Positions 46,647-62,970 of a DNA stretch of 64,000 bases are shown here, one piece after another. Positions within the stretch are counted from its first letter, which is position 1; every line of letters begins with the position of its first letter. The notes beneath the pieces are model-generated. The model was not told where the DNA came from. It was given only the letters and a program-made list of their open reading frames with translations, and ran no database searches. This DNA comes from Bacteroidales bacterium (GTDB lineage: Bacteria > Bacteroidota > Bacteroidia > Bacteroidales > UBA932): assembly GCA_017651465.1 (NCBI GenBank), contig JAGCCX010000024.1, positions 31,647-95,646 on the forward strand, in the 5' to 3' direction. Both the position numbers and the translations under genes were made by a program.

Positions 46647-46679
46647 TGAAGGAACAATCATATTCACAAAGATAGCAAA

Positions 46680-47032: not shown

Positions 47033-48442
47033 TTAGGACTCCTGAATCTCAGGGGTTCCCTCTTGGCTTTTCTTACGGGCCTCGTCGAATTTGGCCTTCA
47101 TTGTGGGGTTCTTGTAGGTAAGCTTCCTGATGGTCAGCTCCTCGGTATCCTGGTTCGCCAGGCGGAGATAGTTCTCAGATTGTTCAAAGCTCTTTTTTAC
47201 TGCCTGCAGCTTCTTGATGGTATCATCAATCTGTTTGATGGCGTCTTCGAATTTGCCTGCGGCACGGGTATAGTGGTCACCAAACTTGTTCCGGAACTCA
47301 ATAAGCTTGTTCTCGAAATTGGTTACATCCACATTCTGGCTGCGGGCAAGGGCGAGTTCCTTCTTGTATCCGACCGTATTCTTGGCCGCATTGACAAGGA
47401 GCATAATAAGCGATTTGAAGAACTGCGGGCGAATGACAAACATCTTCGGGTAGCGATAGGAAACATCCACGATGCCCGTATTGTACAACTCGCTTTCAGG
47501 CTCCAGGAGGGAGACCAATACGGCATACTCACACTTCTTTTCGTTTCGGTCTTGATCCAGCTTCTTAAAGAAGTCCTCGTTCTTGTGCTTGGTGGCTGTC
47601 TCGTCCATCTCGTTCTTCATCTCGAACATGATGGAGATATACTCGGTGTCGTCTTCTTTGTCACGGAAGATGAAGTCACCCTTAGAACCGCTGGAGGCAT
47701 CATTGTCCTTCTCGAAATAGGCGTTCGGGAACATCGGGCGCATTTCGCCATTGAATACGTTGCTGCAGTGGGCTTCCAGGGTCTCACCGACCATCTTGGT
47801 AGACAGGCGAGCTTTGAAATCCTTGAGCCGCTCAACTTCCTCGTTGGCAATACGCAGGCGGGATTCATAGTCGTCCTTCAGTCCTTTCTCTCGTACGGAT
47901 GCCTCGGACTTAGCGACCTGCAATTTCCCCTCGTAGTCGTTTACAATGCTCTGCTCACGCAGTGTTGCTTCCGAAGCCGCGAGCTTGGCCTGCGACTTAA
48001 GGTCGGCAATTTCGGTTTCCTTAGCCTGCACTTCATCCTTTGCCAACCGGCGCTCACGAAGGACAGCGATCTCTAATGCTTGGGCATTCTGTTCGATAGT
48101 TGCCCGGAGTGACGCAATCTCCTTCTCTTTCTCAGTCACGGCAGCGCTGAGTTCCAACTCGCGTTTGTCACTCATTGCCGAAAGCTGTTCCTTAAGGCGA
48201 AGGATTTCGCTATCTCTCTCGCCAATAACCTTGTCTTTGGCGGACAACTCCTTCTGGTGCTCCTGACCAGCCTGGGCATCACGGGCCTTTTGTTCTGCTT
48301 CCTGCTGTTTGTGAAGCTCGGCAATACGGCGGTCTACCTCGGCATTAAACTCGGCACCCTTGACTTGACTAAGGATGGCAGCGTAATCGTCTTCGTTGAC
48401 GGTGAAGGGCTTTCTACAGTTGGGGCAAATAAGTTCGTGCAT
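47033..48442 (-). CDS. DUF2130 coiled-coil protein with PD-(D/E)XK-like nuclease core
   Basis: This 469-aa protein opens with a half zinc ribbon (ICPNCRKPF), then about 180 residues of heptad-rich coiled coil. The DUF2130 core follows, with KGDFIFRD and IMFEMKNEMDET giving an Asp and Glu-x-Lys arrangement typical of PD-(D/E)XK nucleases. The layout resembles RmuC-like proteins. It probably acts on DNA as part of the island. The ATG at 48442 is used because the longer reading starts at TTG. It has its own promoter, with operator copy 48503-48521. Confidence 0.85.
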   Translation of the reverse strand: MHELICPNCRKPFTVNEDDYAAILSQVKGAEFNAEVDRRIAELHKQQEAEQKARDAQAGQEHQKELSAKDKVIGERDSEILRLKEQLSAMSDKRELELSAAVTEKEKEIASLRATIEQNAQALEIAVLRERRLAKDEVQAKETEIADLKSQAKLAASEATLREQSIVNDYEGKLQVAKSEASVREKGLKDDYESRLRIANEEVERLKDFKARLSTKMVGETLEAHCSNVFNGEMRPMFPNAYFEKDNDASSGSKGDFIFRDKEDDTEYISIMFEMKNEMDETATKHKNEDFFKKLDQDRNEKKCEYAVLVSLLEPESELYNTGIVDVSYRYPKMFVIRPQFFKSLIMLLVNAAKNTVGYKKELALARSQNVDVTNFENKLIEFRNKFGDHYTRAAGKFEDAIKQIDDTIKKLQAVKKSFEQSENYLRLANQDTEELTIRKLTYKNPTMKAKFDEARKKSQEGTPEIQES

Positions 48443-48485
48443 GTTCAATTCTATCGCTCAACAGGGATGTTTTCTGTTGACAATG

Positions 48486-48521
48486 CAAAGGTAATATGTA
48501 GGTGTGCAGTGAATCTGCACA
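48486..48521 (-). promoter_or_regulatory. WYL-type operator and promoter of the DUF2130 gene (site A)
   Basis: The minus-strand -7 element TACCTTTG is at 48486-48493. Nine bases further upstream is the inverted repeat TGTGCAGTGAATCTGCACA (48503-48521, 7-bp arms). The repeat covers the spacer and -33 region, a repressor position. The whole block, TGCAAAGGTAA to the operator, is nearly identical to that at hsdM. Confidence 0.78.
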
Positions 48522-48537
48522 GAAAAATACTACTCAA

Positions 48538-51500
48538 CTATTTTTTGCCAAATAGTTTTTGGTACCATTTTATACTCCTTACCCGATCCAATTCAGTTTC
48601 AAGGTCATAAATCCTCTCAAGCCTTTCTCTCAATTGGAAATCTTTATCCTCAATCTGAGATTGCATCTCCAGAATTGTCTTGTCATCTTCTTCCATCGTT
48701 TCCAGAGCTTTGCGAAGCTCCTCTTCAGTGCCCTCTAGTTGCTCCTTGATTTCGCCTTTTTCGATCTGTAGAGACTCGATCTTATCCTTCAAAGCTCGAG
48801 CTTGGATCTTATTATTATTTAGTTGAGCATCTCTCTCGGCCAACGTTGACTTTAAATAATCCACTTGTTCAGAGAGTTTAGAAACCTCCTCCTCCTTTTT
48901 TGCAAGAGTCTTCTTAATAGAGGGTATATCTGAAACAGCACTGAACAAACGTGAAGTCCAGAGAGAGACATAACGCCGGAAGGTACTTGTATTAACGTCA
49001 TCCCGGTACTTGAGCGCCGTATAGACGCTTTCAATCATCTTCTGGACGTTTCGTTCATGGAATGCTTTACGTGCTTCCGCATAGTAGAAGTCCGCCTTAC
49101 TGGCAGAGAGCTGTTCAGTTAACAGAGTTTCGGGAGTTTCATTCTTTGCGAACTCAATTACTCGCCTGTCTGTCTTAACGCTCCAATTTCCAATCGGAGA
49201 CATCAATACCAAGCCGTTCAATGACGTGCATCGACTCAAAGCGACATATACTTGTCCGGAAGCGAATGAATCCCCAATGTCGGCGATCACCTTTTCAAAA
49301 GTCAATCCCTGACTCTTATGTACTGTTATTGCCCAGGCTAAACGTAAAGGGATCTGAGTAAAAGTCCCAATTACCTCTTCTTTTATCCGTCCTTCCTCTT
49401 CATCCCATGTGTAAGCCATATTCTTCCACGTGTCGCGCTTAACCCCAATGGTTTTACGAACACCTCGACGCGTTTCTATTTCAACCTTGACTTCGTCGAC
49501 ATTAGTTTCAGTTATGACTCCTATCTTCCCGTTATAATAACGGCCATCTATATCGTTCTTCACAAACATAACCTGTGCACCGACCTTCAGAAGAAGCTCA
49601 GTATCCGTCGGCCTATTTGCTAGAGGGAACTCGCCGGTCACCCCGGCCATATATGTCATTGTTGGTGTCTTCAGCTCGTTAAGCTTCCTTTCATTAATTT
49701 CCGATACTCGATCATTCTTTGTTGCAAGAATGATATAGTTATCCTTTTCTTGTGGTTTGAAATTCGGATTGAGTCTGCTGTTTAGGGTTTGGAAGTCCCC
49801 AGGCAGCATCTGGTTAACACGTACCCTATTCAATAGATTAATGAAATCCTGCTCATTCTGACGGTATATTTTTTTCAGCTCTATGTATAGGGGTTTATTG
49901 TTTTGAATTACTTTTGAACTGAAAAAGAACTCACTGTCATAGAAGCGCCTTAATATATCTTTATCTTCCCCTATAGCAACAGGCGGCAGCTGGAATGTGT
50001 CTCCAATCAGGATTACTTGTACCCCACCAAAGGGCAAATTGCTTTTGCGGTATACTCTCAGCAGTGTATCAACAACATCAAGTAAGTCAGCACGAACCAT
50101 TGAGACTTCGTCAATCACAAGTAATTCCAGATTTCTTATGATGTTGATCCTGTCCTTATTGTAACTGAAATTATCGTAAATGGTTGAGCGATCAGAATCA
50201 CCAGCAGGGGCATAAGTACGCAACCGCTTATCGTTAGGTACATATAGCGATGGTTTGATCTTAAAGAAGGAATGAATAGTTTGCCCGCCTGCATTAACCG
50301 CTGCTACACCTGTTGGTGCAACAACTGCCATTTCTTTAGTGGTTATTTTCCTAAGGTATTTTAAGAAGGTGGTCTTACCTGAGCCAGCTTTACCTGTGAG
50401 GTATAGATTTCTATTTGATTCTAATGCGAACTGCAGGGCGTACTGAAATTCTTGGTTGTCAGGGTCCAGTTTAATACCATCAACCTCAAAAGTGTTTTCT
50501 TCGGCCTCTTCGCTGTAAGTATCAGCATCAGAAACCATTTTGGCCATGGTCTCTAATTCTTCCGAATTTATGTCTTCACTAATATGGTCGAGAGCATTCG
50601 CATGCTTTTGTAATTCGGGAATAGAATCTGATACCTTGCCAATAGAAAGATACTTACTATTCTGTATGGATTCAGATAAATATGCGAGGGATAGATACAC
50701 GATATTTGTGTAACATCCTCGTCCGAAAGCTTTTTTGCAGCATGTTTTTCTGCAGCCTTCTTTAATGCTGATGGCATTAGCGCTTATTTCCTGAACTGTA
50801 CTTGGGCTTGAGACAAGTTCAATAACGATGTAAGACGTTAACTCCTCAATGGAAAGAGGCGCCTTGTTATATGGCTTGGCCTTAATGCCTAGTTTTTCTA
50901 TTCTATCTTTAAGATACTGGAACTGATTATCCGCCAAAGACTTATCAAGCTCGCTATCAGCAAAAAAGACAAGTAGCCCATCAGTGTCATTGCATACTTG
51001 CGTGTAATTTTCTTTGACCGATTTTATGAAACAGACAATTTGCTCATAGGGCTCTTGAGGGAATACTTGTTTCCCTGAGTAAAGCCCTTCAAGGAGGCTC
51101 TTCTCGTAAGCGGGATCTGCATTCCCTTTTGTGGCACAATAGTGATTAAAACAGAAAGTGTCTGATGTCGCATTGGGGTTATTCTCAAAACCAACCTCAA
51201 TAGAGTCTTTGCTCCACCCTGGAAGATGCTCAACTGCCGCATCTTGACAAACAGCAGAAAAGGCTTTTTGTTTTTCTATCCAGCTACGATAAAAAGCAGA
51301 ATCAGAATAGATACCATCAAAAGGGCCTGTTTCAGTTTCTTCGTACAATCTCTCACATTCATCATACGAATCAAGATAACCAGGTTTGTGACCATCGTCA
51401 AAAGCCTCCTCAAAAAAAAGTGGGAACAGTTCCTCTGGACTTTCCACCTCATGCATTGCGTCTATTTCACCAGATCCTTCGTTCTCATGTATTCCCCACT

Positions 51501-51903
51501 TGCACAATGCATTCAGAACACCTACTTTATTGGATGCGGCAATATCTGTAGACCCGCTACATAAAGATATTACATACTCTGGCTTAACTTTAAGAAAATC
51601 AAGAGCTTGCCTAATAGCATTCTCATAGGATTCTACGGTACTACCGTCATATAATAAAAGTTTACCGTAAGGAATCCCGCAATGCTCTAGGACAGCTTTT
51701 GAATAACGCCCTACGAATCTTGAAATAACACAAACGGGGATCTTGTTATGTTTTATTCTATCCACAACTCTATCCGCACCTGGATAGAGATGACATTGCT
51801 CTATTAATGAAAAGAAATTACTAACCCCTCCTCGCTTAAAGGCTTCAGTAAGAGCAGTGGTATTTACAAGCGTATGTTCAAGATTAAGGATAATTTCTTT
51901 CAT
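48538..51903 (-). CDS. Degenerate HAD domain fused to a PIF1-like helicase
   Basis: This 1121-aa protein has at least four parts. Residues of about 1-150 have a HAD-hydrolase layout, but motif I reads LNLEHTLVNT in place of DxDxT, and GSTDIAASNKVGV stands where the acidic motif IV is expected. Residues of about 160-480 are unrecognised. A PIF1/RecD2-like superfamily 1 helicase follows (Walker A GKAGSGKTT near 500, VIDEVSMV, GDTFQLPPV, HKSQGLTF, VALSRC). A C-terminal coiled coil covers about 1000-1110. The helicase motifs look active and the HAD does not. It lies 32 bases behind the exonuclease gene and is probably in the hsd operon. Confidence 0.85.
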   Translation of the reverse strand: MKEIILNLEHTLVNTTALTEAFKRGGVSNFFSLIEQCHLYPGADRVVDRIKHNKIPVCVISRFVGRYSKAVLEHCGIPYGKLLLYDGSTVESYENAIRQALDFLKVKPEYVISLCSGSTDIAASNKVGVLNALCKWGIHENEGSGEIDAMHEVESPEELFPLFFEEAFDDGHKPGYLDSYDECERLYEETETGPFDGIYSDSAFYRSWIEKQKAFSAVCQDAAVEHLPGWSKDSIEVGFENNPNATSDTFCFNHYCATKGNADPAYEKSLLEGLYSGKQVFPQEPYEQIVCFIKSVKENYTQVCNDTDGLLVFFADSELDKSLADNQFQYLKDRIEKLGIKAKPYNKAPLSIEELTSYIVIELVSSPSTVQEISANAISIKEGCRKTCCKKAFGRGCYTNIVYLSLAYLSESIQNSKYLSIGKVSDSIPELQKHANALDHISEDINSEELETMAKMVSDADTYSEEAEENTFEVDGIKLDPDNQEFQYALQFALESNRNLYLTGKAGSGKTTFLKYLRKITTKEMAVVAPTGVAAVNAGGQTIHSFFKIKPSLYVPNDKRLRTYAPAGDSDRSTIYDNFSYNKDRINIIRNLELLVIDEVSMVRADLLDVVDTLLRVYRKSNLPFGGVQVILIGDTFQLPPVAIGEDKDILRRFYDSEFFFSSKVIQNNKPLYIELKKIYRQNEQDFINLLNRVRVNQMLPGDFQTLNSRLNPNFKPQEKDNYIILATKNDRVSEINERKLNELKTPTMTYMAGVTGEFPLANRPTDTELLLKVGAQVMFVKNDIDGRYYNGKIGVITETNVDEVKVEIETRRGVRKTIGVKRDTWKNMAYTWDEEEGRIKEEVIGTFTQIPLRLAWAITVHKSQGLTFEKVIADIGDSFASGQVYVALSRCTSLNGLVLMSPIGNWSVKTDRRVIEFAKNETPETLLTEQLSASKADFYYAEARKAFHERNVQKMIESVYTALKYRDDVNTSTFRRYVSLWTSRLFSAVSDIPSIKKTLAKKEEEVSKLSEQVDYLKSTLAERDAQLNNNKIQARALKDKIESLQIEKGEIKEQLEGTEEELRKALETMEEDDKTILEMQSQIEDKDFQLRERLERIYDLETELDRVRSIKWYQKLFGKK

Positions 51904-51935
51904 CTCTCGTTTGTTTAAAAAAACAATATGCTTAA

Positions 51936-52514
51936 CTATCTTCTAATTATGCCTCTATTCTTCAATTCAAGATAGCATTTGAGAGTCGCCCTTATGTCTG
52001 ACAGTGCATTATGGGCGTCTTTGAACTCATCACCAAATAGCTTTTTATACAATTCTTGAAGCTTCGGATACCTGTATCCATAGTTCCCAGGAATTGCACA
52101 AAAGTCGATAGTGCTCTGCATCGTGCATATCGAGGGCTTTGCAAAAAGAGTATCTCTTCTGCCGCATCGAATCAATTCTGCCCCAACTACATGTATGTCA
52201 AAGGAAACATTGTGCCCAACCACAAACGAGGAACTATCTACATCACACATAAATGAGCTTAGAACATCCATTAAAGGTTCCCCTTTATCTTCGGCGATAT
52301 CCATTGTGATGCCATTAAGCTGACTCGCCTCCGCTGGGATTAAGAACCCACACGGGTATATGAAATGATCGTTTTCATTGATGATATTCCCGTCTTCTTC
52401 AGCAGTTATCCAGCTTAACTGAATCATCCGGGGCCAATTATATAATGCCGAGGCGGGTGCTTTATAATCCTTTGGCAGTCCTGTTGTTTCTGTGTCAAAG
52501 AAAACGTACTTCAT
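51936..52514 (-). CDS. DnaQ-like 3'-5' exonuclease (DEDDh)
   Basis: This 192-aa nuclease has all DEDDh motifs: ExoI FDTETTG at 6-12, ExoII GHNVSFD near 96, and ExoIII HNALSDIRA near 167. It resembles the epsilon subunit family but stands alone. It lies between hsdR (54-base gap) and the HAD-helicase gene (32-base gap) in the same direction with no visible promoter of its own, so it is likely in the hsdMSR transcript. A 3'-5' exonuclease with a PIF1-type helicase suggests joint processing of DNA ends. Confidence 0.9.
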   Translation of the reverse strand: MKYVFFDTETTGLPKDYKAPASALYNWPRMIQLSWITAEEDGNIINENDHFIYPCGFLIPAEASQLNGITMDIAEDKGEPLMDVLSSFMCDVDSSSFVVGHNVSFDIHVVGAELIRCGRRDTLFAKPSICTMQSTIDFCAIPGNYGYRYPKLQELYKKLFGDEFKDAHNALSDIRATLKCYLELKNRGIIRR

Positions 52515-52568
52515 ACAATTCTATATGATACCAAACTATAGATACAAAGAAGCTGTAGATGATGAATG

Positions 52569-55500
52569 CTATCTGAAGCCCCTGACCAGTCTGTCGTAAA
52601 TCTCGTTGAACCAGAGGCGCTTGAACATTTCATTTGCCCGGTCTTCCGTGAGCTTGTTGTAGAGCTCAAGCTTCGTGTTGATGAAGGTCATCAGTTCGTT
52701 ATCAACCTCCTCGAAGAACTTCTCCTGGATGTTGTCACGGGTGTTGTCCTTGTTAAAGAACGCCATCAGTTCTTCGTTGGCCATCACGTGCTCCTTCATC
52801 TTCTGAATGTCTACCCGGTCATCCTCGGTAAGTTCAAGGCCGAAGGTGTCATTGAGCTGCTTGATAATATTGCTCAGGAAGTCCATTTCCGGTTCGTCAG
52901 GGCCTGTCACCTGGCCGGGGCGCATACCGGTGACGCTGGTGTCGCCGCTGTCAAGATTAAGCTTCTTGGTAAACTGGTACTGGACCTTGTAACTGTCGAG
53001 TTCCGTTTCATTCAGAATATCCTTGGGCATCTCATCCTTCTGGTAAGGGAGGAGCTTGGCAAGTGCAATCAGGAATACATACAGCTTGTCCAGTTCAATG
53101 TCCTTGAACGTGATAATCTGGGAAAGGAACTTGTACAGGTTTGTGTACTGCTTACAGGTTTTCTTAAACTTATACAGGTCCTCTTCATTCAGACGGCCTT
53201 TGACTTTGTCTACGGCTATGTAAAGAACGCCATACACGAGTTCTTTGTTGACTTTGTCGGGATAGTAATAACTGGCAAAGTTGTCCACGTCGATCTGGTC
53301 GAACGCATCAAACTCCTGAATGCGGCTCTTGAGGTCGTACAGGCTGTTAGGGTCGGTTTCGTCTTCCTCGTTCATATAAAGACCGCCATAGTAGTCCTGG
53401 AAGCCTTGCTTGATGATCTCAGGGTCGTTGACGAAGTCCAGGACCATTGTAGAGTCCTTGCCGGCGCAAGTGCGGTTAAGACGGCTCAGCGTCTGCACGG
53501 CGCTCTCCGCGGCCAGTTTCTTGTCCACGAACATCGTGTGCAGGAGAGGCTCGTCAAATCCTGTCTGGAACTTCTCAGCGACGATAAGTATCCGGTACTT
53601 CGGCATCTTGAATGCCTCCGGAATATCAACGTTGCCCTCCAGGTTGTTCATAGAGGTCTCGGTATAAGTCTCCCCGGTGTCCTCGTCATATACGGAACCG
53701 GAGAACGCAACCAGGGCACCATAAGGGAGGCGCATTTCACGCATCAGTTCATCGAACTTCCGCTTGTAACGGACGGCGTGAAGGCGAGAACGGGTCACGA
53801 CCATAGCACGGGCTTTGCCCTGGATTTGATTGCTGGTCTGCGTCACAAAGTGTTCCAGCATAATACGGGATTTGCGCTCTATGGCGACATCCTGCAGGTC
53901 CACATAGCTGCTCAGCAACTTCACGGCCTTCTTTTTCTCATACTCTTTGTCCGGGAACTTGGGGTCGCGGACGAGCTTGTAATAGCGCTTGAAGGACATA
54001 TAGTTCTCGAGCACATCCAGGATAAAGCCTTCCTTGATGGCATCTTCCATTGTGTACTCATCGAAAGGCTTTTTCTGCCCATTCTCCCGTTCGCAGAAGA
54101 GTTCGATTGTCTTCTGCTTTGGCGTGGCTGTGAAAGCGAAGAACGAGATATTATGCTTGAAGCCCTTGCGGTCAATCTCGCCCTCGATTATATTGTTCAG
54201 GATGTCCTCCGGATCAGCACCCTTAGCGTCCTCAGCATCGAAGGCTTCCGCCTCCTCCAGAGAAAGAGCCTTTCTCATCTGACGAGCTGCTTCACCCGAC
54301 TGGGAGCTATGAGCCTCGTCAATAATGACGGCATACTTGCGATCCGGGAAAAGCTGGATAGTATCGGATATGACCGGGAACTTCTGCAGCGTTGTCACTA
54401 TGATTCGCTTACGCTCTTCGATAGCTTTCTTCAGGTCTTGGGAATTGCACTTGTTGTCGATATACTTGACCTCACCTTCAGTTATCTGGAACTGACGTAG
54501 ATTGTTCTGGAGCTGACGGTCCAGGACACGGCGGTCGGTGACGACCAGCACGCTGTCGAAGATAGGTTTCTCATCTTCGACAGTCTTATAGAGATTGGAA
54601 AGGCGGAAAGCCAGCCAGGTGATGGTATTGCTCTTACCGGAGCCTGCGGAATGCTGTATGAGGTAGCGATGACCAGCGCCCCTCTCTTTTACATCACCTA
54701 CCAGATTAAGAACGGCGCGGCGCTGATGGTAGCGGGGAAAAATCAGGCGAACATCCGATTTGGTTTCAATCTTTCCAGTTCGCTCATTGTAGTATTTCTC
54801 TTCAACTGTCTGCAGGTTGATGAAATTCTGTAACAGATCCAGAAGGTTATCTCTGGAGAGAACATCCATCCACAGGTAAGATGTTTTGTAACCGATAGAC
54901 TCAGTCTTCTCGTTAGCATACGTCATATTAAACGGGAAGAAACGGGTCTTCTCGCCAGCCAACTTGGTGGTCATAAACACCTGTTCGGAGCCGACAGCAA
55001 AGTGAACAAGGCACCGCTTGAACTCCAGGAACTTCTCCCCTTCTACCGGGCGGTCGCACATATACTGGCGGATGGCATTGATATGACGCTGCCCGGTCAA
55101 GGAATTCTTAAGTTCCATTGTTACGACAGGAATGCCGTTTACAAAGAGAACCATATCAATTTCGTTGTCGTTCTTCTCTGAATAGCGGAGCTGACGGACA
55201 ACGGCCAGACGGTTCTTCTCGTACAGAAGCTCATGCTCAGGCGTAAGACCACTAGCGGGCTTATAGAACACCAAATTGAAACGTGCTCCGTAACCGGCTT
55301 CAAACTTCGCATTACCCTGGAAGAGATGGAGAGGGCCACGCTTCAGTTCGGAGTCAAGACGACTTAGAATAGATTTACGCGCAGCCGCCACGCTTCCAGT
55401 CGCCGACACAAGATCCTTGTAAGTATCCGGCTGGGATTCCTGAAGGAAAGCTATCACCTCTTCGGGGATAACACAGAGCTTCTTGTCGAAAGCCCCGGGC

Positions 55501-55619
55501 TCGACAGAGTGATACTCGGGCAGATCTGTGAATGTACCGTCTGCCTGCTGTACGTATCTATGTGTCAGATATTGCTCTATCTGACCTTCCATGTACAATT
55601 CGTCGGGTGTTCCTGGCAT
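52569..55619 (-). CDS. hsdR: Type I restriction enzyme, R subunit
   Basis: This 1016-aa motor-nuclease subunit cuts unmethylated DNA after translocation. The N-terminal PD-(D/E)XK nuclease shows NEIDMVLFVNG and VTMELKNSL (about 155-172). The SF2 translocase has HSAGSGKSNTITWLA (Walker A, about 322), IIDEAHSSQSGE (about 431), TATP and later helicase motifs (EKFQTGFDEPLLHTMFVDK, QTLSRLNR). The C-terminal helical part binds the M/S core. It starts 2 bases after hsdS. Length and motifs indicate an intact enzyme. Confidence 0.97.
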   Translation of the reverse strand: MPGTPDELYMEGQIEQYLTHRYVQQADGTFTDLPEYHSVEPGAFDKKLCVIPEEVIAFLQESQPDTYKDLVSATGSVAAARKSILSRLDSELKRGPLHLFQGNAKFEAGYGARFNLVFYKPASGLTPEHELLYEKNRLAVVRQLRYSEKNDNEIDMVLFVNGIPVVTMELKNSLTGQRHINAIRQYMCDRPVEGEKFLEFKRCLVHFAVGSEQVFMTTKLAGEKTRFFPFNMTYANEKTESIGYKTSYLWMDVLSRDNLLDLLQNFINLQTVEEKYYNERTGKIETKSDVRLIFPRYHQRRAVLNLVGDVKERGAGHRYLIQHSAGSGKSNTITWLAFRLSNLYKTVEDEKPIFDSVLVVTDRRVLDRQLQNNLRQFQITEGEVKYIDNKCNSQDLKKAIEERKRIIVTTLQKFPVISDTIQLFPDRKYAVIIDEAHSSQSGEAARQMRKALSLEEAEAFDAEDAKGADPEDILNNIIEGEIDRKGFKHNISFFAFTATPKQKTIELFCERENGQKKPFDEYTMEDAIKEGFILDVLENYMSFKRYYKLVRDPKFPDKEYEKKKAVKLLSSYVDLQDVAIERKSRIMLEHFVTQTSNQIQGKARAMVVTRSRLHAVRYKRKFDELMREMRLPYGALVAFSGSVYDEDTGETYTETSMNNLEGNVDIPEAFKMPKYRILIVAEKFQTGFDEPLLHTMFVDKKLAAESAVQTLSRLNRTCAGKDSTMVLDFVNDPEIIKQGFQDYYGGLYMNEEDETDPNSLYDLKSRIQEFDAFDQIDVDNFASYYYPDKVNKELVYGVLYIAVDKVKGRLNEEDLYKFKKTCKQYTNLYKFLSQIITFKDIELDKLYVFLIALAKLLPYQKDEMPKDILNETELDSYKVQYQFTKKLNLDSGDTSVTGMRPGQVTGPDEPEMDFLSNIIKQLNDTFGLELTEDDRVDIQKMKEHVMANEELMAFFNKDNTRDNIQEKFFEEVDNELMTFINTKLELYNKLTEDRANEMFKRLWFNEIYDRLVRGFR

Positions 55620-55621
55620 AA

Positions 55622-56986
55622 TTATTCTGACGTAGATAAATCAATCTTCCCTAATACAGCTTCAGAAATGATAGAATTTCTAAGCTCTCTCAGTTCTGAT
55701 ACTTGCTCTTCGATTCGCGCAACCGCATTACTGGTTTCTTCCGTAAGCGTATTGAGATAGTTGGAAATAACCTCTTGCTCATCCTTTGGAGGGAGGAAGA
55801 TAGGATTATTCAAATAGCCTGCGACCTGTAAATTCTGAATACCTATAGTTTGATTGTAGTATAGAGCGTTTACATGCTTCGAATACATCATATGGAAATA
55901 ATAGTATAAGAAGTCGCGGTCAAATTCTGGTTTTACGGATAATTTTTGTACAAAGTTCGAGCAAACAGACTTCTCTGTAACGGTATTTCTAACCACCCGT
56001 CCCACAGGGGAAACTTCTCCCCCGCCAGACTTTTCAAGAAGAAGATCTCGCGATGTTAGAACTCTTTCATTACCATCATCAATAACGATGTACCGCTTCG
56101 TGAGCTTTTTGTCAGAGATTACACCTTTCGCGTAATCAAAATCAGCGACGCGTACACAAATGATGTCATCCTCAGTATTTTTGCAATCTTCACCCCAAAC
56201 GCCGCCGACATTCGATTCAAGACAGAACCGAATAGAACGTTTTTCCCAAGAAGAAGGAACCTTCCCTATCCACTCAACGCCACTGTCGACGAAGTCGGCA
56301 TTTTTATTTAGGCCTCGAGTGATAACTTCCGATATGACTGATATACGGTTCTCTTGTAACAAAGACCGTTCTTCAATCCTTTTTGCAATAAGGGAATCAA
56401 TGTTGGAAATTCTTTCATCCAGAACATCTGCGATTCTTTCCTGTTCGGCCTTGGAAGGAACGATCAATTTTGATTCAAACAGAATGGGCTGAGTAATACT
56501 ATATAGCTTCACCCCATTAACTAAAGAGCGGATTTGTGAACGCCATTCGTCCGTTTGAAACAGATATGCAAAGTACCTCCCAGAGAAAACACTCTCATTT
56601 CTAGCTATTATCGAATGGTAGCCAGCAAATAGCGTATAATCAACATTGACAAATACGCAATTACCACAACCATCAAGGTCTTCAGAAGTGTCGGCGAAGA
56701 TAAAATCCCCCTTCTTAACAATGCTAGAAGGGCAGGTGTCTATATACGAAACAGGTACATACCGTAGCAGGTCATCAGTTACTGATACTCCATTATTGCT
56801 TTTGGAGTGAATTTGACCATAACTGATAACAGGCACACCAACACTAACAAGATCCGCCTTAGTAATTGGTAATCCCTTTTGAGATGAGAACAGTCTCTTA
56901 AAAGGGATAATCTGCCAACCGTCAGGCAATTCCGGCGCCCACGATAATGGAGTTTTATAGTATTTATTATATCTGTTGCTCATCAT
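55622..56986 (-). CDS. hsdS: Type I restriction enzyme, specificity subunit
   Basis: This 454-aa subunit contains two target recognition domains, each followed by a conserved coiled coil. The first coil is seen at KAEQERIADVLDERISNID and the second at KDEQEVISNYLNTLTEET. Each domain opens with a typical W-x-x-x-P-x-W/G-W segment (DGWQIIPFKRLF; PSSWEKRSIRF). HsdS sets the split DNA target read by the enzyme, which cannot be predicted here. No second hsdS fragment or recombinase is nearby, so I see no sign of phase-variable shuffling. Confidence 0.95.
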   Translation of the reverse strand: MMSNRYNKYYKTPLSWAPELPDGWQIIPFKRLFSSQKGLPITKADLVSVGVPVISYGQIHSKSNNGVSVTDDLLRYVPVSYIDTCPSSIVKKGDFIFADTSEDLDGCGNCVFVNVDYTLFAGYHSIIARNESVFSGRYFAYLFQTDEWRSQIRSLVNGVKLYSITQPILFESKLIVPSKAEQERIADVLDERISNIDSLIAKRIEERSLLQENRISVISEVITRGLNKNADFVDSGVEWIGKVPSSWEKRSIRFCLESNVGGVWGEDCKNTEDDIICVRVADFDYAKGVISDKKLTKRYIVIDDGNERVLTSRDLLLEKSGGGEVSPVGRVVRNTVTEKSVCSNFVQKLSVKPEFDRDFLYYYFHMMYSKHVNALYYNQTIGIQNLQVAGYLNNPIFLPPKDEQEVISNYLNTLTEETSNAVARIEEQVSELRELRNSIISEAVLGKIDLSTSE

Positions 56987-56991
56987 TGATA

Positions 56992-58722
56992 CTATGATAA
57001 TATATCCTTGATTAAGCCCTGAATCTCATGCTCCTTTTCAATAATGTCTTTCTTTATCAAGACGGATTCTCTGAGAGTTACAAACTTATAGAAATACTTG
57101 GTGAAATTGATTTCATAGTTGATTCGTGTCCTGGATAAATCAATCCAAGATTCCTTGTCAATGAAAGGAAGCACCTCATCCTCAAAGTAGCTATTAAAGT
57201 CACAATCCAGGGGAACACTTTCATAACTACGCTTATCAGTGTCCGGTTGTTTCTCGCCACGACGCAGATCCAACGAGCCATTCGTTTTTCTTTTGGGTTG
57301 TTCAATAGTCAAATAGAAACTACCAAACGCGCCATTGTCATAAATCTTACTAAACTCGTTTTCCTCGAAGTTGCAATACAAGGCAAGAATCTGTTCAATA
57401 TGTTCAGGGAGAATATCATTCCTCTTGTTTCCCAAACTCTTTGAGGCCGGCGCACAGAAATCCACGGCATTAATCAGCTGCACTTTGCCCTTACGCTCTG
57501 CGCTTTTCTTATTCGTAATGAACCAGATGTATGTGTAGATACCGGTGTTGTAAAAGAGGTCCTTGGGAAGAGCGACAATACACTCCAGCCAGTCATTCTC
57601 AATAATCCACTTTCTGATATTGCTCTCGCCGCTGCCGGCTCCGCCCGAAAAGAGCGGAGAACCATTGGTGACAACACCTACGCGAGCTCCATCCGGCTCC
57701 ATCTTGGAGATCATATGCTGGATAAACAGCAACTGCCCATCACTGACACGAGGAGTGCCTGCATAGAAACGGCCGTCCGGGTTCAGGGATTCATTGAGAA
57801 TGAACTCCTGATCTTTCTTCCAGGTTACACCGTACGGCGGATTTGCCATGATATAGTGGAACCGTGAGGATTTGAACTGGTCCTGTGTGAAGGAGTTGCC
57901 CAGCTTAATATTATCAGCATTCTCCCCGGTAATCAATGCCTCGGACTTGGCGATAGCGTAGGACTGCTCGTTGAGCTCCTGCCCATAGGTGCGAATCGTC
58001 GGGGTGTTTCCTTCGGAACAGATGTTCTCCAGAATGTAGTTCTTGCCAACGTTGACCATACCACCGGTACCACAAGCGGGGTCGTAAATGGTGCGGATGA
58101 TACCATTCTTATTGAGAACATCCTTATCCGGGGTGAACATGATGGCGCTCATCAGGCGAATCACATCACGAGGAGTGAAGTGCTCACCAGCGGTCTCGTT
58201 GCTGTTTTCATTCGAGATTCGGATGAGCTCCTCAAAGATGTAACCCATATCGTGGTTGTCAATCTTCTCCGGCGAGAAGTCCAACTCGCAGATCTCCTGG
58301 ATCATCTGGTACAGGAGACCATTGCGGATGAGCTTAGCGATAACCTTGTCGAACTGGAAGTTGGTCAGAATATCCCGGACCTCCTTGTTGAAACCGTTGA
58401 GATAGTTCTTGAAGTTAATCTCGCAGTTCCGGGCGTCATCCAGAAGGGTGACGAGGGTGTGTTTAGAAGTGTTGTAGAACTTCTTTCCACCGGCGGCTTT
58501 GAAGAGGACCTTCTCCAGGTTCTGGTCCGCAATCTTATCTTTGAACTGCTCGTAGTTCTTCCTGACGGTTTCGTTGTAAGGCTTAAGAATACAGTCGATG
58601 CGGCGAATCACCACGAAAGGCAGGATGACATCACCAATCTCGTTCTTCTTGAAGGTATCTCTAAGAACGTCGTCTGTTATCTTCCAAACAAAACTTACGT
58701 CCGGTTTTTTGTTGTTCTCCAT
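56992..58722 (-). CDS. hsdM: Type I restriction enzyme, methyltransferase subunit
   Basis: This 576-aa N6-adenine methyltransferase has an N-terminal HsdM helical domain (VWKITDDVLRD). The catalytic domain shows DPACGTGGM (SAM binding, about 210), TYGQELNEQSYAIAKSEALI and the catalytic ANPPYG (about 290). The C-terminal part ends in a helix. It methylates the site recognised with HsdS to protect self DNA. It is first in the hsdMSR operon, and the 58773 operator with its -7 element lies directly upstream. Confidence 0.97.
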   Translation of the reverse strand: MENNKKPDVSFVWKITDDVLRDTFKKNEIGDVILPFVVIRRIDCILKPYNETVRKNYEQFKDKIADQNLEKVLFKAAGGKKFYNTSKHTLVTLLDDARNCEINFKNYLNGFNKEVRDILTNFQFDKVIAKLIRNGLLYQMIQEICELDFSPEKIDNHDMGYIFEELIRISNENSNETAGEHFTPRDVIRLMSAIMFTPDKDVLNKNGIIRTIYDPACGTGGMVNVGKNYILENICSEGNTPTIRTYGQELNEQSYAIAKSEALITGENADNIKLGNSFTQDQFKSSRFHYIMANPPYGVTWKKDQEFILNESLNPDGRFYAGTPRVSDGQLLFIQHMISKMEPDGARVGVVTNGSPLFSGGAGSGESNIRKWIIENDWLECIVALPKDLFYNTGIYTYIWFITNKKSAERKGKVQLINAVDFCAPASKSLGNKRNDILPEHIEQILALYCNFEENEFSKIYDNGAFGSFYLTIEQPKRKTNGSLDLRRGEKQPDTDKRSYESVPLDCDFNSYFEDEVLPFIDKESWIDLSRTRINYEINFTKYFYKFVTLRESVLIKKDIIEKEHEIQGLIKDILS

Positions 58723-58755
58723 ATATTGTTTTTACTCTTTTCTTGTTTGACGATG

Positions 58756-58791
58756 CAAAGGTAAGTATGGGGTGTGCAGTGTAAATGCACA
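58756..58791 (-). promoter_or_regulatory. WYL-type operator and promoter of hsdM (site B)
   Basis: The minus-strand -7 TACCTTTG (58756-58763) is followed upstream, after 9 bases, by TGTGCAGTGTAAATGCACA (58773-58791). The block matches site A closely, including TGCAAAGGTAA and the GGTGTGCAGT half. The operator abuts the stop codon of the 361-aa gene. It should control hsdM, S, R and probably the exonuclease and helicase genes. Confidence 0.8.
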
Positions 58792-58792
58792 G

Positions 58793-59878
58793 TTATTCAA
58801 AAATGCGATTTGGTGAAAAAGTGGTTCCCAAAGGGGCTCCAACAAACTTGGGTATCCCTACGATTTTGAGGCCATTATCATAATTTGATCGAGCTGTCTT
58901 ATATATAGCCTTTACACCTTCTATATCATCATTAGCTAATTGATGTTCACGCCTCCCCGCCCTAAATGGGTCATGGAAATACGTGTAAGCCCAGGCCGAA
59001 TTCCTTTGATCTCCATCTCGGTATACTTTATTGGATAGAGGTTCAAATATCTTAAACCCTTTCTCGGTACCGATGAAAGAGTAGTTCATATATAGAATCC
59101 TTCGATGGATTAGATTTTTCGAAAAAACGAACTCAACGTGAATATCATAACTTCTGTTAAGAGCGGTAGCAAGACCATCTTTCCATTCAGTCACACGCTT
59201 TATAAGCAATGCTTCTTTATCGTCTTTCCCTTGCCCTAAAATCAGAATGTAATAAGGGATACTGAGTTTTTGAGGGAGAATAGCATCGAGAAGATGTGTC
59301 ATATTCGCTAGCCCCAAAATATGTCCATTACGCTCATTACTAAGTAAGAAATTATCTGAAATAATCAGACTATTGCTCGGGGGTAATTTCAAACCATTAC
59401 CGATAAAGATATTCTTCCAACCATTATCACCTCTACCGTAATTTTTGTCAGGCACAAACTCATCCTTGAAGGACAATAACTCGAACATACGGTTTGTCAC
59501 CTCTTCTTTACTTATCACCCAGACACCATACTTATCCCGGAGCATCTGCGCATCTTGTGAAGGGCAGTCTCTTAAGAATAATGCATTGGGCTTAGATATA
59601 ATGGTGTCTTCTTGAGCTTTCATTAAGTCAAAGAAGTCCTTAAGTGCTATTGGTACAGAAATGTCATAGGCATTAAAAATGGTGAACAAATCATCCAGAT
59701 TATTTAAGTCAGCAGGATTAAAAATACTATCCAACTCAGCATCAGTCAAATCTATACAGATGTTGGAATGGCTCTTAAAAATCTCGATGATATTATCCAA
59801 GCCATCTTTTGTGAAGGCCTTTCTCAAAACATCCGTTAAAGCTGTCCTCTCAGCGTATATTGTTGCTTTAGAGTCCAT
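58793..59878 (-). CDS. Unrecognised 361-aa partner of the SMC-like ATPase
   Basis: I do not recognise the family. The N-terminal half (about 1-150) is alpha/beta and acidic (SNICIDLTDAELDSIFNP, ALFLRDCPSQDAQMLRDKYG). The second half has beta strands with HVEFVFSKNLIHRRILYMNY (His, Arg and Asn in a compact set), FKIFEPLSNKVYRDGDQRNS and FHDPFRAGRREHQLAND. These clusters of His, Asp, Arg and Asn look like an active site, and a nuclease or phosphodiesterase role is a guess. It starts 4 bases after the ATPase stop, so the two are coupled. There is no HNH, TOPRIM or TIR motif. Confidence 0.7.
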   Translation of the reverse strand: MDSKATIYAERTALTDVLRKAFTKDGLDNIIEIFKSHSNICIDLTDAELDSIFNPADLNNLDDLFTIFNAYDISVPIALKDFFDLMKAQEDTIISKPNALFLRDCPSQDAQMLRDKYGVWVISKEEVTNRMFELLSFKDEFVPDKNYGRGDNGWKNIFIGNGLKLPPSNSLIISDNFLLSNERNGHILGLANMTHLLDAILPQKLSIPYYILILGQGKDDKEALLIKRVTEWKDGLATALNRSYDIHVEFVFSKNLIHRRILYMNYSFIGTEKGFKIFEPLSNKVYRDGDQRNSAWAYTYFHDPFRAGRREHQLANDDIEGVKAIYKTARSNYDNGLKIVGIPKFVGAPLGTTFSPNRIFE

Positions 59879-59882
59879 ACGA

Positions 59883-61811
59883 TTACTTATTACGAGATGC
59901 CATTTCGAGTTTATTCAGGGCGATGGAGTCCTGAGCCGAAGCGTCATAGAAGTTCTTGCCGAACGGCTTCCCAAATCTTCCGGTAATAGAATACTCCATA
60001 TCATAGGGGTCACCTTCCTTCGGGAAGTAGTACACCTTGAAAGGACAATTCTCTTCCAGGTCTTTCTCGTTCTTGTAGCCACTTTCTGCCACAATGACCT
60101 GAGAACGACGAATCATATACTCCGAATGAGTCTCGACGATAAACTTAAATTTGAAGTTGCTATTTACATACGCCAACAACTCAGTAAGCATGCGCTGAAG
60201 ATCAGGATGTAGATTCTGCTCCGGCTCCTCAATAACTATGAAGGGTTTAGCGTGCGTATGCTCATATTTACGAATAATCGAGGCCAGATTAATAAGAAGA
60301 ATCATCATCTGGTTGGACCCCATACCCTTATCAGCAAGATCCATCCATTTCCCTCCGTCAGAGATATAAAAACGATAAGCTTCTCCACCAAAAGACTCAA
60401 TTTTGAAATCATCACCAATATCAAACTTTTTCATCCAAGTCTTGATAAAAGTATGAGCTGTAGAGCCTTCCACAATCTTCGAACGGCAGAAACGATGAAT
60501 GGATTTTGCCAAATAATCGTTTTTGTTATCAGTGTTGTAGAAGATATTCTGAGAAACAGAATGCGCGTAGATGTATTCAGCTGAGATTCCACTTATCACA
60601 AAAGACAAATCTTCAGCAAGGTCGCGAAGCATACCAGACCTTTCGTGAATGAAAGCCTTATCCGCCTCCTTGTCCTGCCACTTCTCAAACAGGATTGGAT
60701 CGGCCTTGTCCTCATCGGAAAGGACTTCCGTCATACCAGAGATTGAGATCACACTATCAATCTGGTTTACAATATAGTTTACTCCTGAATTCTCAAGCAC
60801 TGTGCAACTGTCCAGAGTAACTTTGGTGGCCTGATTACGACTCGGGGACTCTTTAGTAAGCATCTCCTGAGACTTTCGCAATTTATCAAGCTCAGCGTTT
60901 CTTTCAGCAATCTTCATCAGCATGCTGTTGCTAAGAGAATTCAACCGGGAAAGCTCATCCTTAAAGCGACGATCTTCCTCTTTTGCCATTTGGTCCTGAA
61001 GATCCCGCTGTCTATATCGAAGCTTCTCCATACGTTCAGACAACTGCTGCATTTCATGAAGCGCATCAGGGTCATTCGACTGTATCCTCGCCATATGCTC
61101 AGCTAAACGTGCATTCTCCATGCTAAGTTCAGCTAGTTGCTGATGTATAGACGCTATCATTTCTGCTTGTCCACGCATCAAATGCTGGCGGTCAGAAATC
61201 TGCTCCTTAAGCATCTTGCTTTCCTTATAGAGGCTATCAAGTTCAGCGAGAATCATGGCGATCCTCTCATCTAAACTTCTCTTCATCTCAGAGGTCGTCG
61301 CTTTTTTGGAAGCAAACTCCACTATAGTTTTACCCGCATCATAATCAAAATCAAACTTAACTCCGCGAGAGTTGTCCCAAACACGAATGCGAGAAATGTC
61401 TCCAGTAGTTTCATCAGCATCTTCATTGCCCTTAACATAAAGGGTAATTGTAAAATCTGCCTTCCGCTTTATACGATTTCCGGCATCATCCATCAGATCC
61501 AAGTCCCTTTGCAAACGAACGCAGAAACCGATCTCTACCTTTGTCCTTTTGTTACAAAGTGCACGTTTAAACGTTCCGATACCGAGGTCATGATACTCAT
61601 TAGCATCGAAACGGAACTCGGGTTTAAGCTCCTGGAGAGAATCACCTCCGCCTATCTTTAGAGCCTTAATGTTGTCAAGGATCAAGAGAAGCCCCTTTAC
61701 GAGGGTAGACTTACCAGCATTATTGGCACCGACCAAAATAGTGATATCACCCAAGTCCTTAGGCTGAAGTTCCTTAAACCTTCTGAAGTTCTTAAATCCA
61801 ATCTGATTCAT
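59883..61811 (-). CDS. SMC/Rad50-like ATPase with internal coiled coil
   Basis: This 642-aa ABC-class AAA ATPase has Walker A GANNAGKST (about 29-37), a coiled-coil arm (about 195-325), a signature-like DKGMGSNQMM, Walker B FIVIEEPEQNLHP, and the switch His in VETHSEYMIRR. The C terminus has a GKNFYDASAQDS segment like DUF3696-type ends. The arrangement is that of defence ATPases such as PtuA and related OLD/SMC-like proteins, which activate a coupled effector. No TOPRIM is present in the chain, so the effector is presumably the downstream 361-aa protein. It has its own -7 and operator (site D). Confidence 0.9.
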   Translation of the reverse strand: MNQIGFKNFRRFKELQPKDLGDITILVGANNAGKSTLVKGLLLILDNIKALKIGGGDSLQELKPEFRFDANEYHDLGIGTFKRALCNKRTKVEIGFCVRLQRDLDLMDDAGNRIKRKADFTITLYVKGNEDADETTGDISRIRVWDNSRGVKFDFDYDAGKTIVEFASKKATTSEMKRSLDERIAMILAELDSLYKESKMLKEQISDRQHLMRGQAEMIASIHQQLAELSMENARLAEHMARIQSNDPDALHEMQQLSERMEKLRYRQRDLQDQMAKEEDRRFKDELSRLNSLSNSMLMKIAERNAELDKLRKSQEMLTKESPSRNQATKVTLDSCTVLENSGVNYIVNQIDSVISISGMTEVLSDEDKADPILFEKWQDKEADKAFIHERSGMLRDLAEDLSFVISGISAEYIYAHSVSQNIFYNTDNKNDYLAKSIHRFCRSKIVEGSTAHTFIKTWMKKFDIGDDFKIESFGGEAYRFYISDGGKWMDLADKGMGSNQMMILLINLASIIRKYEHTHAKPFIVIEEPEQNLHPDLQRMLTELLAYVNSNFKFKFIVETHSEYMIRRSQVIVAESGYKNEKDLEENCPFKVYYFPKEGDPYDMEYSITGRFGKPFGKNFYDASAQDSIALNKLEMASRNK

Positions 61812-61844
61812 ATGATTCTGTCGTCTTTATTCCGTTTCGCGGCA

Positions 61845-61880
61845 CAAAATTATGTATGACCTGTGTAATCAATTTACACA
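61845..61880 (-). promoter_or_regulatory. WYL-type operator and promoter of the ATPase pair (site D)
   Basis: The minus-strand -7 TAATTTTG (61845-61852) has, 9 bases upstream, the inverted repeat TGTGTAATCAATTTACACA (61862-61880, 7-bp arms, extendable by one C-G pair). It overlaps the last codons of the WYL gene, whose TAA (61874-61876) lies inside it. Confidence 0.75.
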
Positions 61881-62881
61881 GGCAAATAATGCTCGTAAGA
61901 CTCTCTAATTACTTCCTGAATCTGCTTTCTGTATTCTACCGGGGAAAGCACTTCAACATCTTTCCCATACGACAAGATGAGGGCTTCCAGTTCGTTGTTG
62001 GGAATGACATTGATCTCAACAATCCGGTTATCCACATCTACAACCCGCTGGGATGGATGCAGCGCCTTGGTCATCACATAAGGGAAGCGATGCTTCGAGA
62101 ACTGAAGCTGGATTGAAATCCTCTTCTCGTTGTCAACGCTAACTCCAACCACGTCCTTCCAATACGTCTCAAAGTCAATATCTGAAGGAATGAATTCCTT
62201 ATTAACCTGTTCGATGTCCTCGATACGATCCAGAGCAACATTGTAGATTGTGCCCTTTTCTTCATTAAGTCCAAAGAGGAACCAGCGGTTATTATACTCC
62301 TTGATGTAATACGGGTGGATAATCCAGTCGTAATCAACGTCTGCGAAAGTTTTGTACTGAATCCGTAGGACCGTCTTATTGATAATGGCGTCAAAAATAT
62401 CCTGGAACCAATCGAGACCGGTATACTCCTGGTTCTCGTCGTAGCCAACTACGCTCTTGGAAACTCCTCGAAGATCAAGTTTGTCCTCAAGTTTTACGAC
62501 CAGTTCAGACATCCAGTCGAAGTTCGGCATACCTTTAAAGCGCTGAAGCATCAGGATGGTCTCCTTAAGCTGGGCCAGATCATCTTCTCCGAGACCTTGG
62601 CGGAAAATGGAGAAATCAGGCTCGGAATACCGGTAATAGAAACCGTTTCCATCATCAATGGTTTCAACCTCGACGCCATCTTCAGATGCACGGGTACGCA
62701 TATAATTAATGTCAGAACGGAGAGTACGGGTTCTAATGCCAGTATGGTCATCCCCATAAAGTTCACGCAAGGCTTCATTGCAACGCTCCAGAAGGTCGTT
62801 GAAATAGAATTTACGCCGGAAATTGCTGAAACAATCGTCCAGGACTTTATAACGTATTTGTGCGTGTTTATTGCTGGCCAT
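61874..62881 (-). CDS. WYL-domain transcription regulator
   Basis: This 335-aa regulator has an N-terminal winged helix (HAQIRYKVLDDCFSN to TLRSDINYMR, about 4-60), a central linker helix region, the WYL domain (about 150-230, TVLRIQYKTFADVDYDWIIHPYYIKEYNNRWFLFG) and a C-terminal WCX extension. WYL repressors such as BrxR and CapW control phage-defence operons. I use the ATG at 62881 since the longer reading begins at TTG 62899. Four copies of one operator in this island, including one before this gene, point to it as an autoregulated repressor. Confidence 0.92.
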   Translation of the reverse strand: MASNKHAQIRYKVLDDCFSNFRRKFYFNDLLERCNEALRELYGDDHTGIRTRTLRSDINYMRTRASEDGVEVETIDDGNGFYYRYSEPDFSIFRQGLGEDDLAQLKETILMLQRFKGMPNFDWMSELVVKLEDKLDLRGVSKSVVGYDENQEYTGLDWFQDIFDAIINKTVLRIQYKTFADVDYDWIIHPYYIKEYNNRWFLFGLNEEKGTIYNVALDRIEDIEQVNKEFIPSDIDFETYWKDVVGVSVDNEKRISIQLQFSKHRFPYVMTKALHPSQRVVDVDNRIVEINVIPNNELEALILSYGKDVEVLSPVEYRKQIQEVIRESYEHYLPV

Positions 62882-62934
62882 TAGTGTTATTTGGTTCAAT
62901 CAAGCAAATTTAAGGTTTTTTCTTAAAAGTGCCG

Positions 62935-62970
62935 CAATAATAGCAAATTAGTGTGCACTAGAATTGCACA
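62935..62970 (-). promoter_or_regulatory. WYL-type operator and promoter of the WYL gene (site C)
   Basis: TGTGCACTAGAATTGCACA (62952-62970) lies 9 bases upstream of TATTATTG (62935-62942, one mismatch to the -7 consensus) on the minus strand. The spacing is the same as at sites A, B and D. The location implies autoregulation. Confidence 0.72.

Follow-up and report, generated by a model that had tools for sequence, protein, structure and literature searches.

We analyzed a window of 64,000 nucleotides from a Bacteroidales bacterium (lineage UBA932; assembly GCA_017651465.1, contig JAGCCX010000024.1, positions 31,647 to 95,646 of the forward strand), in which the gene for a WYL-domain regulator lies in an island with a complete type I restriction-modification system (HsdM, HsdS and HsdR are all present). 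Four promoters of this island carry a 19-bp palindromic operator locked at 9 bp from a Bacteroidetes-type -7 element (consensus TAnnTTTG). It is very probable that the WYL protein recognizes these operators: across related islands the 9-bp spacing persists while the half-site shifts with the diverged WYL protein, and the shifted half-site is shared by two operators per island. The resulting four-unit regulon is well supported by comparison of the islands. We put at about 0.6 the probability that the WYL protein is an autoregulated activator of this restriction and defence regulon, acting in the manner of DriD.

Four operators, each 9 bp from a -7 element

The four 19-bp palindromes begin at 48503, 58773, 61862 and 62952, as a preliminary description of this DNA had reported, and the 9-bp gap to the -7 element holds for all four (Table 1). 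The same description had called the four promoter blocks identical. Half-sites and geometry are indeed common to them, whereas the sequence varies in the central 7 bp and in the 9-bp spacers; the third site is a TGTGTA variant. Every operator lies upstream of its gene, at 61 bp (DUF2130), 51 bp (hsdM), 51 bp (AAA_15) and 71 bp (WYL) from the ATG; operator 3 overlaps the WYL stop codon.

On an 18-point scale (12 for the arms and 6 for a -7 element at 9 bp) the operators score 18, 18, 18 and 17, and the runner-up place in the 64 kb scores 14. The exact pattern TGTGYA-N7-TRCACA is found at four places in the whole host genome (85 contigs, 2.5 Mb, 95% complete), all of them in this island, so that the sites are not equally frequent at random genomic positions. 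Allowing one mismatch adds four further places genome-wide, and the backwards control likewise gives four. A looser pattern (up to 3 mismatches) yields 11 rows in the window versus 3.9 expected, a count reached in 0 of 100 shuffles; seven of these rows are the four operators, read on one or both strands.

The fixed spacing recurs far beyond the window. We collected 61 loci around WYL homologues, 1.05 Mb in all (L060, a near copy of L061, was dropped). Perfect TRTGYA-N7-TRCAYA arms occur 45 times in this set, and in 43 of these cases a -7 element (5/6 or better, on either side) lies exactly 9 bp away; the two exceptions, with 8 bp in L041 and 11 bp in L062, are both WYL promoters. When up to one arm mismatch is admitted, 61 of 94 sites have a -7 element at 9 bp. 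As a control, each of eight permuted half-sites yielded between 0 and 4 sites, and no such site lay at 9 bp. The same distance emerges when no half-site is assumed: among 19-bp palindromes near WYL gene ends, 24 lie at a 9-bp gap, versus 0-4 at the other gaps from 0 to 25, and palindromes of 17, 21 and 23 bp peak in register with those of 19 bp. In DNA farther from the WYL gene ends, the 9-bp peak is 32 versus 8-17 at other gaps. Several relatives carry two to four operators each.

Chance as the origin of the sites is ruled out by the shuffles, the window score, the permuted half-sites, and the genome-wide and order-wide scans (the latter described below). Recent copying of a single promoter block, which would also give equal spacing, is ruled out because the spacing persists over diverged half-sites, spacers and downstream genes. 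At three loci (L043:7863, L045:7809 and L046:8154) one operator is flanked on either side by a -7 element (5/6 or better) 9 bp away, an arrangement that would let it serve two divergent promoters.

The operator changes with its regulator

At this spacing a de novo search also recovered the half-sites AATGCA, GGTTCA, TGCGCA/TACGCA and ACCGCA/TCCGCA. Three islands syntenic with the window are instructive. In L044 (WYL identity 42%), AATGCA stands before the AAA_15 gene and before hsdM. In L133 (WYL 38%), where the AAA_15 gene, the gene for its 361-aa partner and hsdMSR follow the window's order, GGTTCA stands before AAA_15 and hsdR. In L157, a contig from the IMG/VR collection (WYL 34%), GGTTCA stands before DUF2130 and hsdM; because these two operators share a half-site unlike the window's, they tie DUF2130 to the regulon independently. 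The expectation that related islands keep the repeats at the same -7 spacing was thus correct as to the 9 bp, but the half-sites have changed and do not precede every gene.

Half-sites agree at 5.27/6 positions within a locus versus 4.09/6 between loci, a value matched by 1 of 2000 permutations (15 pairs from 8 loci, six of the pairs being from the window). Mapped onto a rapidly built tree with 61 WYL proteins (first 90 residues left out, fragment L055 not included), three operator classes of 31, 12 and 3 proteins require 4 changes, versus a shuffled mean of 13.6, and 0 of 200 shuffles were as low; these classes were assigned by hand after the results had been viewed, some of them from weak or distant sites (L058, L122, L128 and L155, for example), a reservation to be added to those gathered below. 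In a helix-3-like segment that is conserved across 60 aligned WYL homologues, residue 55 is Q in 10 of 12 NNCGCA proteins versus 1 of 31 NNTGCA proteins, and residues 52-53 are RQ in 18 of the 31 NNTGCA proteins (hand count) and RT in the window's clade, differences that are confounded with phylogeny. For the same reason a mutual-information ranking of residues against operator class does not single out the recognition helix: four of the top 20 positions fall in residues 45-65, with residue 55 third.

L157 encodes WYL, hsdM, hsdS and hsdR together with a DUF2130 homologue that has an in-frame stop. It sits in a viral collection, and the island may therefore travel on mobile elements; scans of viral collections with WYL queries returned one distant WYL contig.

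Operators and WYL genes across genomes

We scanned 393 genomes of the order for the composite TGTGYA-N7-TRCACA-N9-TAnnTTTG with up to one mismatch. This gave 45 rows in 32 genomes, versus 6 matches of the backwards control (counted by hand in the same table). Subtraction of the window's own four sites and of two second readings (G106:7863(+) and G129:7809(+)) leaves 39 sites, and 19 of them lie within 15 kb of a WYL match, versus 0.32 expected. In an independent search at E 1e-20, 101 of the 393 genomes had a WYL homologue; the share was 20 of 31 among site genomes versus 80 of 361 among the others. At the level of the phylum (296 genomes, exact TRTGCA version) there are three non-own matches, all outside the order, and two of them adjoin a WYL gene (41-42% identity). 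Six metagenome-assembled genomes labelled Bacteroidales or Bacteroidia, two of them from sheep or goat forestomach according to their titles, encode the nearest WYL relatives (76-83%).

Several observations weigh against assigning the operators to the WYL protein. The co-occurrence of sites and WYL homologues that we looked for is partial: the other 20 of the 39 composite sites have no WYL match within 15 kb, 11 of the 31 site genomes have none at E 1e-20, and the third phylum-level match (L159) has none within the 3 kb examined. By the criteria used, 15 of the 61 proteins on the tree have no operator, and neither has the fragment L055. In L133, hsdM is not preceded by an operator with the GGTTCA half-site, and in L044, L133 and L157 the wyl gene itself lacks one of the island's half-site. 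Among the 20 WYL-less sites, five end in GGCACA and resemble another motif, those of G266 and G213 are at, or close to, the end of a contig, and G412, scored as a miss, has a partial WYL gene at a contig edge.

Four genomes (G404, G196, G205 and, with two copies, G458), none with a WYL match at E 1e-20, hold five instances of the composite TGTGCA-N7-GGCACA with TAnnTTTG 9 bp away; this composite perhaps belongs to another regulator with equal promoter geometry. The host genome itself encodes a second WYL-domain protein (contig C71:6730-7272, 26% identity over residues 157-332). Such a protein, together with the 11 site genomes just mentioned, would suit a model in which an unlinked host regulator binds the palindromes and the island's WYL protein is a passenger. 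We consider this very improbable: the operators differ with the WYL clade, they adjoin WYL homologues outside the order too, and no exact site lies elsewhere in the host genome. The earlier proposal of one local WYL regulator acting through four operators on a multi-unit defence regulon is well supported, both by the association of WYL genes with sites and by the operator changing with the regulator at constant spacing.

Activation or repression

The preliminary description took the WYL protein for a repressor. This label is not borne out: promoter geometry and the nearest solved relatives favour an activator of the DriD/PafBC type. The operator centre, GATWGAY in 50 sites, is asymmetric and oriented toward the promoter: among 48 distinct sites, T9 occurs without the mirror A11 in 33 and the reverse in 2 (p 4e-8). 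A -33 TTG at a gap of 19-20 bp is present in 0 of 48 operator promoters versus 23 of 120 ordinary promoters, and when gaps of 18-21 are considered it is absent from 48 of 48. The spacer G+C is 39% in operator promoters versus 22% in ordinary ones (p 1e-8 for lower AT), and an A-rich tract marks the DNA just upstream (55% versus 36%, p 2e-5). A -33 element concealed in the operator centre was considered and rejected. TTG at a 17-bp gap, which lies inside the operator, occurs in 9 of 48 operator promoters versus 3 of 120 ordinary promoters, which peak at gaps of 19-20.

The WYL protein matches Pfam WYL (E 2.8e-10) and WCX (E 3.7e-10). It has no Pfam match to a helix-turn-helix (HTH) domain; in a low-confidence structure model (pLDDT 52), the N-terminal order of helices and strands fits a winged HTH (wHTH), and helices 99-113, 121-134 and 159-167 fall in a region that we compared with the three-helix bundle by which DriD-like activators contact RNA polymerase. 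The single protein, searched against solved structures, gave 6 weak matches, none of them a WYL entry. A profile of 30 WYL homologues, few of them NNCGCA (42 were listed; L119, L121, L124, L135, L141, L052, L053, L150, L147, L149, L151 and L152 were dropped), gave E values of 4e-9 to 1e-6 with DriD, PafBC and PafB-like chains and of 1.6e-4 to 0.22 with BrxR and CapW. We take 7QFZ to be BrxR of E. fergusonii and 7TB5 to be CapW. By chain, the profile values are 3.7e-9 to 1.5e-8 for 7tzv, 9pfq and 8tp8 (DriD), 4.6e-9 for 6sj9 (PafBC), 0.013 (7t8k) and 1.6e-4 (7qfz) for BrxR, and 0.004 (7tb6) and 0.22 (9c5g) for CapW. 7TZV and 9PFQ/9PFV/9PGA are described as DriD and 8TP8 as the Caulobacter protein.

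We prefer an activator because of the rigid spacing, the N7 gap, the oriented centre, the missing -33 element and a profile nearer DriD and PafBC. We infer binding by this WYL protein, its dimer state, the activating sign, the single-stranded DNA (ssDNA) signal and the operon boundaries in the following scheme. A WYL homodimer would bind TGTGCA-N7-TGCACA at four promoters, whose predicted units are wyl; AAA_15 with its partner; hsdM-hsdS-hsdR-exonuclease-helicase; and DUF2130. The operator would stand in for the -33 element at its rigid 9-bp distance from the -7, and the bound dimer would contact RNA polymerase and most likely switch the promoter on, as DriD does. The WYL domain would sense a phage-associated signal, by analogy perhaps ssDNA. 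The site at the regulator's own promoter would provide feedback, positive if the WYL protein is an activator.

The same regulon could instead be held down by a WYL repressor of the BrxR/CapW kind, which would block the -33 region in quiet cells and be released by ssDNA during infection. We judge this the less likely reading but a serious rival: the -33 region lies under the operator, the match of the -7 elements to their consensus is good, a restriction system is dangerous and argues for a brake, and the WYL regulators of defence systems in the available passages are described as repressors. Moreover, TTG at the 17-bp gap could be a sigma contact, so that the spacing would be pinned under repression too. 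But a repressor has no need of an exact 9-bp spacing kept across altered operators; the operator centre is asymmetric and oriented, and the family profile is nearer the activators. Nor do the island operators have the geometry of the published repressor sites: their half-sites are 7 bp apart, not 5 as described for BrxR, and they lie upstream of the -7, not over the -10 as described for CapW.

A dual mode, in which the protein activates the three cargo promoters but acts differently or more weakly on its own promoter, seems to us improbable. It would account for a WYL promoter -7 that is poorer than the cargo -7 elements in the window, L061 and L062, and for the sole two departures from 9 bp, both at WYL promoters; against this, the WYL promoter of L063 has a 6/6 -7 element, L064 is mixed, and the geometry of the window's WYL promoter equals that of its cargo promoters.

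Activation, in turn, must be held against the following points. The -7 elements are good, so the promoters could fire unaided. The missing -33 TTG is weak evidence, because only 23 of 120 ordinary promoters have the TTG and the palindrome partly excludes it there. If hsdM were transcribed only upon activation, the chromosome of quiet cells would be unmethylated, and basal transcription must therefore be assumed. The Acinetobacter BrxR site, as described in the available passages, also overlaps a -35 element (-51 to -27). The profile match to DriD spans the end of the WYL domain and the WCX, not the DNA-binding domain; the separate PafC chain is matched at E 0.044 only; and the structure model is poor.

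Gene content of the island

The gene block occupies about 44-63.8 kb of the window and is mainly on the minus strand (Table 1). Between 18 and 41 kb, four of six proteins examined are of sugar-utilisation types (SusC/D, GH3, heparinase/alginate lyase), and the other two have TIG or DUF4957 matches.

Table 1. Operators, promoter elements and genes of the island (positions in the window)
Feature	Position	Strand	Basis
DUF2130 (PF09903) gene	47033..48442	-	Pfam E 4e-81
-7 element TACCTTTG, DUF2130 promoter, 9 bp from operator 1	48486..48493	-	TAnnTTTG 6/6
Operator 1, TGTGCA-N7-TGCACA, before DUF2130	48503..48521	-	pattern and genome scan
PIF1/RecD-like helicase, probable member of hsd operon	48538..51903	-	Pfam and PADLOC matches
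DEDDh exonuclease (RNase_T), probable member of hsd operon	51936..52514	-	domain match
hsdR, restriction subunit	52569..55619	-	Pfam/PADLOC matches
hsdS, specificity subunit	55622..56986	-	Pfam/PADLOC matches
hsdM, type I methyltransferase	56992..58722	-	Pfam N6_Mtase E 1e-60; PADLOC MTase_I E 3e-222
-7 element TACCTTTG, hsdM promoter	58756..58763	-	TAnnTTTG 6/6
Operator 2, before hsdM	58773..58791	-	pattern and genome scan
361-aa ATPase partner	58793..59878	-	without family match
AAA_15 ATPase	59883..61811	-	Pfam E 2.6e-26; PADLOC best AriA E 2e-28
-7 element TAATTTTG, AAA_15 promoter	61845..61852	-	TAnnTTTG 6/6
Operator 3, TGTGTA-N7-TACACA, before AAA_15 gene	61862..61880	-	pattern and genome scan
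WYL regulator, 335 aa, putative wHTH - helices - WYL - WCX, ATG start	61874..62881	-	Pfam WYL and WCX
-7 element TATTATTG, WYL promoter	62935..62942	-	TAnnTTTG 5/6
Operator 4, before WYL gene (predicted autoregulation)	62952..62970	-	pattern and genome scan

The exonuclease was placed in the hsd operon because it is separated by a 54-bp gap with no operator in it. Genes for PIF1/RecD-like helicases in L063 and L043 each stand behind an operator of their own. The DUF2130 product is a putative PD-(D/E)XK-like nuclease, to judge from a D...E-x-K-like motif spotted by eye. SMC-like matches in the middle of the AAA_15 ATPase are weak (SMC models at E 7e-5 and weaker). The 361-aa protein has a 26% homologue at the equivalent place in L133 (L133:6750-7832); it pairs with an AAA_15 ATPase both there and in the window, and is possibly the effector of a two-gene system. 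Downstream of DUF2130, a 260-aa protein (45885-46667) has a 59% homologue in L059 (15257-16006) with an operator of its own (15207), and may be a further member of the regulon.

Among 20 proteins encoded behind operators in other loci are five N6-methyltransferase-HATPase fusions, three HsdM, two AAA_15 ATPases, two PIF1/RecD helicases and one HsdR; four more have one other domain (HATPase alone, N6_Mtase alone, DUF7255, AAA) and three have no Pfam match. The fusions, of an N6-adenine methyltransferase with a GHKL-type HATPase, recur behind the WYL operator at L061:11079-13550, L062:1619-3868, L063:11072-13558, L042:2-2452 and L047:4789-7326.

Comparison with known WYL regulators

We regard a broader proposal as evenly poised. 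WYL activators would form a class, frequent in Bacteroidales and rare beyond, that switches whole defence islands on together; each island would have its own operator (NNTGCA, NNCGCA or NGTTCA half-sites) standing exactly 9 bp from the -7 in lieu of a -33 element. Infection, signalled for instance by ssDNA, would bring on the restriction-modification, ATPase and nuclease units as a single regulon, and the regulator would activate its own gene too. If true, phage defence would have a WYL regulator that activates, and the pairing of regulator and operator could be read as a code. The regulation of defence islands is poorly known. In the available literature, WYL proteins that regulate defence are described as repressors, mostly of one system, and the same is said of those identified so far in phage defence (PMC10693628). 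Among the titles and abstract openings listed, in which subscription journals are thinly covered, we found neither a WYL activator of a defence system nor a WYL regulon in Bacteroidota. Membership of a defence regulon could be predicted from sequence in other Bacteroidales. The predicted regulon here includes DUF2130 and the 361-aa partner, proteins with no assigned function, and the operator thus offers a guilt-by-association route to defence genes. Specificity is testable, since operator and regulator clade vary together, and the sign of control is directly testable.

The comparisons that follow draw on the available passages of the published descriptions. The island's WYL protein resembles BrxR of E. 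fergusonii and Acinetobacter in being a WYL regulator within a defence island. Several sites per island are not new in themselves, because E. fergusonii BrxR has two (R-BOX1 and R-BOX2). In contrast to the regulator proposed here, BrxR is a repressor with half-sites 5 bp apart, at a site downstream of the -10 or at -51 to -27, and with a weaker profile match. CapW, from CBASS, is likewise a WYL homodimer at a 19-24-bp palindrome beside an immune operon, but a repressor whose site overlaps the -10 and which controls a single operon. RptR, too, is devoted to a defence island with type I restriction; unlike the island's WYL protein it is a small repressor, and it binds three direct repeats (core TAGCTA) at the promoter of that island (PMC12255303).

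Two mycobacterial WYL activators also invite comparison; control of a defence system is not shown for either in the passages available. SiwR binds a 19-bp imperfect palindrome between the -35 and -10 elements, like the 19-bp operators of the island. PafBC inserts between sigma and DNA at a -26 motif and matches the WYL profile, but is a heterodimer, unlike the homodimer proposed here. ssDNA is the signal of DriD, PafBC and SiwR, and also of CapW and BrxR according to the introduction of PMC13373217.

The closest parallel is DriD. Its site, ATACGAC-N7-GTCGTAT, stands at a constant distance from the -10 element and overlaps a poor -35; binding is asymmetric and a contact is made with the alpha-CTD of RNA polymerase. 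The island's regulator shares with DriD the WYL-WCX architecture (by profile), the 7-bp gap between half-sites, the constant distance from the -10 or -7 element over the -35 position, the asymmetry, and sites at several promoters. It differs in its setting: DriD responds to DNA damage and acts on genes such as didA and bapE, whereas the regulator described here would serve a local defence island, with a site at its own promoter, another half-site and a promoter of the Bacteroidales type.

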